From NCBI GenBank assembly GCA_945919375.1, contig CAMEJD010000002.1, positions 1-35,642 of the forward strand: a DNA stretch of 35,642 bases, written 5' to 3'. Positions 9,857 to 11,170 of the stretch are shown here, piece after piece (within the stretch, counting starts at the first letter, position 1; each line of letters opens with the position of its first letter). The position numbers and the translations under genes are program-made. This DNA comes from an uncultured Clostridia bacterium. GTDB lineage: Bacteria > Bacillota > Clostridia > Christensenellales > UBA1242. A model generated the notes under the pieces. It searched no databases, was not told the origin of the DNA, and was given only the letters and a program-made list of their open reading frames with translations.

Positions 9857-10360
9857 ATGAATCTTATTGTTTGCATAGATAATAATTATGGAATTGGCTT
9901 TGATAACAATATTTTGTTTAAAATTTCAAACGACTTAAATCATTTTAAAAATTTAACAATCGGAAACATTGTAGTAATGGGATACAACACCTTAATATCA
10001 TTACCAAATGGCAAGCCACTAAAAGATAGAACTAATATCATATTAACAAAAAAAGATATAACCATAAATGGCGCAATAGTAGTTAATTCAATTCAAGAAC
10101 TTTTTGACAAACTTAAAAAGTATACATCCAAAGATATTTTTGTTATTGGTGGTGAACAAATTTATAAACAACTGTTGGACTATTGCAAATTTGCATATGT
10201 TACAAAAGTAAATAAAAGCACAAACGCCAACAAATTCGCACCAAATTTGGACAAAAATCAAAATTGGAAACAAATAAAAATATCTGATAAACATTTTGAT
10301 GGTAACCTTGAATATGTTTTTACAATATATAAAAATCTCAACCCCAAAAAATACATATAG
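9857..10360 (+). CDS. folA: Dihydrofolate reductase
   Basis: Reduces dihydrofolate to tetrahydrofolate with NADPH. At 167 residues it has standard length. Recognisable segments: N-terminal strand MNLIVCIDNNYGIGFDN, substrate-loop Asp in ISNDLNHFKNL (residues 23-33), GNIVVMGYNTLISLP (36-50), RTNIILTK (57-64), and FVIGGEQIYKQLL (about 95-107) with the GG of the cofactor site. The usual active-site tryptophan (Met/Leu-Pro-Trp) is replaced by Phe in ILFKI, which may alter antifolate binding. Thymidylate synthase, its frequent neighbour, is not in the window. Confidence 0.93.
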   Translation: MNLIVCIDNNYGIGFDNNILFKISNDLNHFKNLTIGNIVVMGYNTLISLPNGKPLKDRTNIILTKKDITINGAIVVNSIQELFDKLKKYTSKDIFVIGGEQIYKQLLDYCKFAYVTKVNKSTNANKFAPNLDKNQNWKQIKISDKHFDGNLEYVFTIYKNLNPKKYI

Positions 10361-10486: not shown

Positions 10487-10730
10487 AAGAACCCGAAATT
10501 CGAGACTCGCTCGGTATTTGCACGCAGGAGCTTACCTATGTAAGTAACTGTGTGCAAATTGCCGAGCAGAAACAAAGAAGTTTTTATTGTAGTTTTTAAT
10601 AAATAAAAAAATAGCCATGAGAGCAAGGCTCGGCGAGTTACCACACGAAGGAGTTTAGTTTCCTAAATGACTTTGTGTGGTATGCTCGCCAGTAAACGAA
10701 GCTATCTACACAAACTATGCAATAAATAAA
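10487..10730. repeat. Tandem structured repeat, unit 1
   Basis: First of two 244-bp units. It contains two related hairpin modules. Module A1 (hairpin 10509-10567) has outer stem GCTCGG/CCGAGC, a long ATTTGCAC/GTGTGCAAAT-like stem, the core GCAGGAG opposite TAACTGT, and apical stem CTTAC/GTAAG. Module B1 (10632-10690) has stem GGCGAG/CTCGCC plus TACCACAC/GTGTGGTA, the core GAAGGAG opposite TGACTTT, and apical TTTAG/CTAAA. Each is preceded by a small GAG..CTC hairpin and followed by AG(A/T)AAAC(A/G)AAG. No reading frame of interest. The preceding 10396-10486 holds only two weak inverted repeats (AACCA/TGGTT and TTACCAA/TTGGTAA). Confidence 0.85.
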
Positions 10731-10968
10731 AAAAGAACCCGAAATTCGAGGCTCGCTCGGTATTTGCACGCAGGAGCTTACCTGTGTAAGTAACTGTGTG
10801 CAAATTGCCAAGCAGAAACAAAGAAGTTTTTATTGTAGTTTTTAATAAATAAAAAAATAGCCATGAGAGCAAGGCTCGGCAAATTTGTCAACGCAGGAGT
10901 TTGGTTACCCAAATGACTGTGTTGAAAATTTGACAGTAAACGAAGCTATCATGAGCTATTTTTTTATT
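10487..10968 (+). ncRNA. Candidate structured RNA made of four hairpin modules
   Basis: If transcribed on the plus strand, the two repeat units would fold into four long hairpins with tandem G-A mismatches, each with a small side hairpin, and would end in a helix followed by TTTTTTT, which resembles an intrinsic terminator. The promoter could be weak local elements near 10362-10390 or readthrough from folA. I know of no RNA family it belongs to. A DNA-level role, such as a REP-like palindromic element, remains equally possible. Confidence 0.35.
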
Positions 10969-10973
10969 TATTT
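10731..10973. repeat. Tandem structured repeat, unit 2
   Basis: Second unit, period 244 bp. Module A2 (10755-10813) is nearly identical to A1, differing in the apical loop and with one C-A mismatch in the outer stem. Module B2 (10880-10933) sits where B1 sat but has completely different stem bases (CAAATTT, CAAC opposite GTTG, AAATTTG) while keeping the core GCAGGAG opposite TGACTGT. An outer helix AATAGC-ATGA (from 10855) can close on TCATGAGCTATT (to 10961) and is followed by a T run. It abuts the rpoZ stop codon at 10964. Confidence 0.85.
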
Positions 10974-11170
10974 ACTTGGTCAGAAGAAATAACTTTCCCT
11001 TCATATATTTCATCAGCGGCCATACTAATTGCCTTCTTGTCGCTTGCTTCAATTTCTGCAGGAATAGTTTTTTCAAGTTCTTTTGCACGCTTTTCCATTA
11101 CGCAACAAAGTTTGTATTTATTTCCGCCCATTTTGGCTGCCAATTCATCGATTGGTGGTTCAATCATCAT
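10964..11170 (-). CDS. rpoZ: DNA-directed RNA polymerase subunit omega
   Basis: A 68-residue omega subunit, which helps assemble and stabilise RNA polymerase. Family features: MIEPPIDELAAKMGGNKYKL at the N-terminus, then CCVMEKRAKEL and ISMAADEIYEGKV near the C-terminus. Two adjacent ATGs exist; GAGG nine bases before 11170 favours the first. In many Bacillota rpoZ follows gmk and precedes coaBC and priA; here it stands alone after ligA with its own promoter. Its 3' end touches the structured repeat array, which may act as its terminator. Confidence 0.93.
   Translation of the reverse strand: MMIEPPIDELAAKMGGNKYKLCCVMEKRAKELEKTIPAEIEASDKKAISMAADEIYEGKVISSDQVNK

Follow-up and report, generated by a model that had tools for sequence, protein, structure and literature searches.

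What are the four similar hairpin modules that stand in a row between two convergent genes of an uncultured Clostridia bacterium, and what has kept their fold? The window, i.e. the whole stretch of DNA that was analysed, covers positions 1 to 35,642 of contig C2 in the home genome (G000; 1.16 Mb in 26 contigs, 96.8% complete). Within it, an array of two units of ca. 245 bp, holding four modules, occupies the intergenic region between a dihydrofolate reductase gene and an rpoZ-type gene. The two units with four homologous modules described in a first-pass annotation were recovered as a 198-nt direct repeat with a spacing of 246 and 91% identity. The core it had read, G(C/A)AG-GA-G opposite U-(G/A)A-CU(G/U)U, and the replacement of a C-G pair by A-U in copy B1 are likewise present in the sequence. 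The features of the locus are listed below, with scores from R1, a covariance model made from 19 home-genome copies in 14 fetched stretches, and from R3, a covariance model made from eight enterobacterial ERIC copies alone.

9857..10360, plus strand: dihydrofolate reductase gene (Pfam PF00186), convergent left neighbour of the array
10501..10579, plus strand: core of copy A1 (R1, 91.8 bits), its full left arm lost or altered
10624..10702, plus strand: core of copy B1 (R1, 92.3 bits), without a matching right arm after it
10747..10825, plus strand: core of copy A2 (R1, 90 bits; R3, E 0.34), without a matching right arm after it
10844..10869, plus strand: left outer arm of B2, paired in the predicted fold
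10870..10946, plus strand: core of copy B2 (R1, 80.4 bits; R3, E 5.1e-4), a complete copy that adjoins the gene end
10947..10972, plus strand: right outer arm of B2, paired in the predicted fold and spanning the stop codon and last two codons of the rpoZ-type gene
10964..11170, minus strand: rpoZ-type gene (RNA polymerase omega; Pfam PF01192, E 2.4e-8) to the right of the array, TAA stop at 10964-10966

The element extends beyond the modules as annotated earlier, since the core of B2 is enclosed by outer arms, whose outermost 18 nt are perfectly complementary, and the right arm overruns the stop codon of the neighbouring gene. On the plus strand, B2 together with its outer arms was predicted to fold at -54 kcal/mol (z = -10.2), and none of 200 shuffled sequences was equally stable. 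B2 folded strongly on both strands (z -10.2 and -11.5), and in seven folded stretches (five loci, two of them on both strands) every z-value lay between -8.1 and -13.9. The separate small GAG..CTC hairpin of the first-pass annotation had to be given up: CGAGGCTCG would leave a loop of 1 nt, and in the predicted fold of B2, GGCTC is part of the long stem, where a C bulges out.

A blastn search with the array returned 25 places in the home genome, and R1 gave 30 matches there at E<=0.1. Of 60 relatives searched with R1, 24 were matched. A lack of copies in related genomes, which had been named beforehand as a reason to drop the idea of a selected fold, was not seen: 17 of 17 genomes of the home genus carry matches (4-37 copies each), as do 4 of 19 in the rest of the family (20 copies in one genome, 1-2 in each of the three others) and 3 of 24 in the order. 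R2, a broader model made from 150 of 155 matches in 100 loci, was used with stricter filters; it matched 42 of 297 genomes of the order, belonging to 19 of 121 genera, and in a phylum sample of 398 genomes it matched the home genome and none of the 397 others. A pattern scan of public genomes found at least 113 stretches and, among the 80 matches listed, these came mostly from uncultured Clostridia. Two MAGs titled Bacteroidaceae had three matches per genome; in both (L122 and L123) copies were seen at the 3' end of an apparent serS gene. One BLAST query each against phages and plasmids, and one exact pattern against viral contigs, searches that divergent copies would escape, gave no match, and carriage by a phage, virus or plasmid was rejected for lack of matches in these collections. 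The search of Rfam that had been proposed for a homologous family was negative, both for the element in the window at gathering scores and for 11 loci at E<=1. We conclude that the four modules are copies of a dispersed repeat and not a local oddity.

Conservation of the fold was examined in an alignment (A3) of 142 distinct rows. Although the rows had been fitted to the model and are hence biased towards its structure, 93.8% of cells were paired, 26 of 26 pairs had changed on both sides, and the covariation score was 0.591, versus at most 0.108 for slid structures. With the 30 home-genome matches of R1, the covariation-supported homologues that were to be looked for outside the locus are therefore at hand. 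Compensatory change had also been put forward as strong evidence that the folded form is selected. The covariation itself stands, but as sole proof of selection it falls short, because template switching during replication, a described source of compensatory changes in hairpins (PMC8794818), can restore hairpin pairing. One strand keeps the G-A core and two wobble pairs. At these two conserved wobble pairs, 228 cells had G-T and not one had A-C; at the other pairs, G-T outnumbered A-C by 70 to 36 (p 0.0012, with cells that are not independent of each other). A separate count gave 82 to 14 for 98 inner arm pairs, the conserved wobble included, and 24 to 34 for the outer arms. The excess of G-T over A-C points to the strand that carries the G-A core, and we conclude that the fold of this strand is the favoured one. 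We would argue that mismatches retained on one strand are better evidence for selection than covariation is.

The position of the copies relative to genes was determined for 108 last copies. The right-hand gene was antisense to the G-A-core strand in 84 cases, sense in 15, and absent in nine; the 15 same-strand genes among 99 right-hand neighbours speak against the reading preferred below, as an ERIC-like mobile element. In intervals between co-directional genes, the folded strand was antisense in 39 cases and sense in seven. Between convergent genes, 19 of 23 copies were antisense to most of the other coding sequence (26 clusters with missing, far or short neighbourhoods were dropped from this count), so orientation may follow replication or the dominant operon. 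Replication alone as the determinant was rejected, as the GC skew of short loci tracks genes.

Gene ends were then located relative to the element. Among the 84 last copies with a minus-strand gene no more than 300 nt to the right, the stop codon lay within 45 nt in 52 and farther away in 32, the latter again counting against that reading. When 50 near loci were realigned, pairing of the outer arms began, at the median, at the second base of the stop codon, and in 20 it extended into sense codons. The outer stem was clear at 41 loci, where 37 of the genes have a TAA stop; a TA in the left arm stood opposite the stop codon in 65% of these loci, versus 15-42% at nine other offsets, and the identical stop triplet was present in 21, versus 1-6 at seven control offsets. 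Since this excess is tied to the pairing between arm and gene end, it is compatible on its own with insertion at TA as well as with copying of the gene end. As a general rule, copying of the gene end into the arm was rejected: the arm extends at least six bases into codons in eight of 50 loci, two or more of which may reflect wrong gene calls, and the gain over swapped gene ends was slight (5.84 versus 5.38 of 12 bases, p 0.0055). In other families of the order, a core-to-gene-end distance of ca. 20-27 nt was noted by reading at L275, L277, L279, L282, L287, L289, L291 and L293; loci that depart from this spacing also occur there, e.g. L294. One copy (L011:2126-2234) directly adjoins the 3' end of an RNase P RNA gene; non-coding RNA genes thus carry copies too.

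A location at gene 3' ends is what would be expected if the palindrome acted in the sense transcript, as a 3' end, terminator or stabiliser, and were kept for that function. At 23 of 74 loci the genes on either side of the copies are convergent, versus 82 of 542 background intervals (taken from long loci, the copies' own intervals included); many home-genome loci have A-tract and T-tract arms; and ERIC, a repeat of enterobacteria, reportedly alters the stability of mRNA in Yersinia when it lies in one orientation (PMC2229807). It is the antisense strand, however, that carries the conserved G-A core and wobble pairs, and the home-genome rpsG copy, by reading, has no T-run. Moreover, such a function accounts for retention beside genes but not for dispersal. 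We therefore consider a cis-acting RNA an unlikely explanation, if the most serious of the alternatives.

To the first-pass annotation, this core was unknown from any family of RNAs or palindromic repeats, but ERIC, also called IRU, has it. R2 matched a site between pyrH and frr in a contig of a Chryseobacterium assembly (L326); by recognition, this tsf-pyrH-frr contig looks enterobacterial and is probably a contamination. Nearly all E. coli genomes searched (5,375 of 5,426) contain the matched sequence, the median being 8 places per genome; for a related query from E. coli the median was 14. The boxes of the clostridial element, CRAGGC, CAGGAGYTTA..TAARTGACTG and an AACGCAG-like box, are those of ERIC, and the published ERIC/RU-1 consensus has the identical three (PMC2759123), in identical order. 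The central core of ERIC, CAGGAGCTTAC..GTAAGTGACTG with its tandem G-A mismatches (GAG/TGA), was found in the element, and the flanking boxes, CAAGGC on the 5' side and AACGCAG on the 3' side (variants AACGCAG, AACGAAG and AACAAAG), stand at matching spacing. GAG and TGA were invariant in eight of eight aligned enterobacterial copies. As with ERIC (127 bp), the element is an imperfect palindrome over its whole length, stretches of 122-135 nt folding end to end; it is dispersed and intergenic, with no encoded protein seen and what appears to be a terminal TA in most tested copies. Three E. coli ERIC copies folded alike (z -9.0, -6.5 and -4.2), their outer arms varying with pairing kept.

Could the two repeats be unrelated, and similar at the tip because a G-A hairpin is useful or stable? 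The match is indeed strongest at the tip. R1 gave a full-length match to the enterobacterial copy in L326 (32 bits, E 1.3e-6). Of seven E. coli ERIC loci it matched four, three of them with E below 0.001 and confined to the central 32 positions, the fourth at E 0.17 over 20 positions; it missed the remaining three. Convergence would also suit the differences in terminal repeat and host group, and the absence of R2 matches from the 397 other genomes of the phylum sample. Against it, both flanking boxes align as well, with the correct spacing, and the ERIC-only model R3 lands on the clostridial elements. In 85 loci (880,297 bases), R3 gave 45 matches at E<=1, of which 44 fall on known elements (two being a single place fetched twice) and one, L294:1658-1685, could not be assigned to any. 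Many clostridial copies were matched by R3 along their full length. In the window, R3 matched A1, A2 and B2 but not B1. The best match (L072, E 5.6e-6) is among the copies from other families of the order, which look nearer to ERIC. Comparison of the ERIC core with non-enterobacterial cores gave a score of 32 with 25 of 129; the maximum in 40 shuffles was 27. Convergence thus appears improbable.

The clostridial copies nevertheless differ from typical ERIC. The fixed 7-bp terminal inverted repeat of ERIC is absent from them, and their outer arms are locus-specific. They have an extra bulge (CAAGGC-TC-GGC versus CAAGGC-GGC), are tied strongly to stop codons and one orientation, and form arrays with truncated copies. 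ERIC is known from Enterobacteriaceae and some other gamma-proteobacteria, whereas the carriers described here belong to a clostridial order; a literature search that covered few subscription papers found no report of ERIC in Clostridia. ERIC is tabulated with a terminal TA and a target duplication (PMC2229807); among pairs of empty and filled loci, no clean one gave an exact target duplication. Because the core and boxes are common to both, and the terminal repeat and host range are not, we filed the element as a divergent ERIC-like branch and not as typical ERIC. We conclude, with a probability of roughly 0.68, that the array consists of four copies of a dispersed imperfect palindrome of ca. 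130 bp, likely a clostridial branch of ERIC/IRU and predicted to be non-autonomous (MITE-like) DNA.

Candidate mobilisers were sought in the genomes of the genus. A REP-type Y1 transposase gene beside copies had been suggested as a sign of a DNA element. The Y1 domain PF01797 was absent from the home genome and nine others of the 17 genus genomes, and none of ten fetched Y1 loci holds a copy. Reverse transcriptase PF00078 was absent from the home genome and 11 others of the 17, and one of 12 fetched loci holds a copy (L232, a sub-threshold reverse-transcriptase match). Tyrosine recombinases gave one match in G006, which has 18 copies, and none in G012 (75% complete), which has 21. Each of the three was rejected as mobiliser, its presence being unlinked to copies. 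In 1.99 Mb of fetched loci no larger, gene-carrying version was found, the single match being two tandem copies.

Other known systems share some of these properties. Like the RAYT-mobilised REP, BIME and REPIN sequences, the copies are dispersed palindromes mostly downstream of genes (PMC3733652); unlike REP, the clostridial element is larger, has a different core and a GGAG instead of a GTAG tag, and its home genome has no Y1 gene. The RUP element of Streptococcus pneumoniae, a MITE linked to IS630-Spn1, is likewise a short dispersed repeat with a TA target (PMC2229807), a likeness by description, and, unlike for RUP, no donor insertion sequence was identified. In integron attC sites, too, the folded strand is antisense to the preceding gene and has unpaired bases and variable stems (PMC2727003), and one could imagine an attC-like site that a tyrosine recombinase recognises in its single-stranded, folded form. 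Not all clostridial copies have the AAC/GTT boxes of attC, though, no cassettes and no linked integrase were seen, and recombinases do not track the copies, which makes such a site very improbable. Least probable of all is a structured RNA transcribed from the antisense strand: it would agree with the favoured fold being that of this strand, but the left-hand gene, the usual source of read-through, is on the plus strand for 46 of the 108 last copies, on the minus strand for 44 and absent for 18, and no Rfam family matches.

The history of the repeat, which we read as an ERIC-like mobile DNA, was followed at individual loci. The gene rplS was found in 16 genus genomes. One of them, the home genome, has the array, and the 15 others had no copy in the stretch compared (520 nt; 93 nt for G004). 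By reading, these 15 loci mostly have a plain short hairpin after the stop codon, and R3 gave no match in them. We conclude that the array is a lineage-specific gain in the home genome. At ligA, 18 loci from 17 genomes were compared, some of them cut by contig ends, and a core was found in just two genomes, the home genome and G010. Some genes recur beside the element: among 95 right-hand genes, rpsG was found nine times, fusA four times and lysS three times (rpsG was identified by Pfam in L018, the other rpsG, fusA and lysS neighbours being presumed from recognition), and some positions are thus either old or favoured. In the rpsG-fusA region, an identical operon position is occupied in several genera (e.g. 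L018, L070, L273 and L276); the matches of two g45 genomes that have one or two each lie in the str operon.

The arrays are internally ordered. AGGCTC/AGACTC motifs outside complete copies, within 700 nt, numbered 59 on the left, some by chance, versus 19 on the right, and right halves without a left half numbered only seven, several of them variant-core copies. We conclude that arrays have polarity, left-half remnants lying mainly to the left of complete copies. The closely related loci L139 and L208 differ by entire blocks of partial copies, and in the copy at C2:152382 the left half is of A type and the right half of B type. Different element types within one array share a locus-specific outer-arm base, which speaks against simple insertion. 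Larger variants with ca. 70 nt extra in the hairpin tip were seen at L014 and L021 (G000, contigs C6 and C4), L015 and L010, and R1 aligned two larger variants at 151-152 nt (L259 and L262). At L069 (G042) and L134 (a Clostridia MAG), a copy lies beside an apparent large serine recombinase gene, in similar surroundings.

A mechanism can be proposed from these positions and array structures. The element would enter at a TA dinucleotide, most often the one within a TAA stop codon, and the stop codon would survive entry because the end of the element usually starts with A. The element would then become the new 3' end of the gene and, at some loci, likely a two-way terminator. The hairpin of the antisense strand may be recognised by a putative enzyme or DNA-binding factor. 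Arrays of truncated copies with locus-specific outer arms suggest that template switching is added to insertion: arrays might grow through repeated entry at one stop codon combined with fold-back template switching, which would remake the left outer arm from the right arm, i.e. from local sequence, and would leave the left half of the older copy, truncated at its 3' side, on the far side.

ERIC is familiar as an enterobacterial repeat and typing marker, for which no mechanism of movement is established (PMC2759123, PMC2229807). It is likely that ERIC-like mobile DNA reaches far beyond the bacteria for which ERIC was named. The clostridial branch has up to dozens of copies per genome of ca. 1 Mb and stems far more varied than those of ERIC, and these varied stems reveal the fixed letters (the G-A core and two boxes) and the favoured strand of the fold. 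They also call for caution, since covariation in such repeats can stem from replication as well as from selection. More tentatively, and with the balance somewhat against it, ERIC might belong to an old family of mobile DNA hairpins that spans phyla, in which a putative TA-targeting enzyme would read the folded antisense strand and entry at stop codons would give genes new ends without breaking them. The many natural copies beside stop codons make mobility testable by comparison of close strains.
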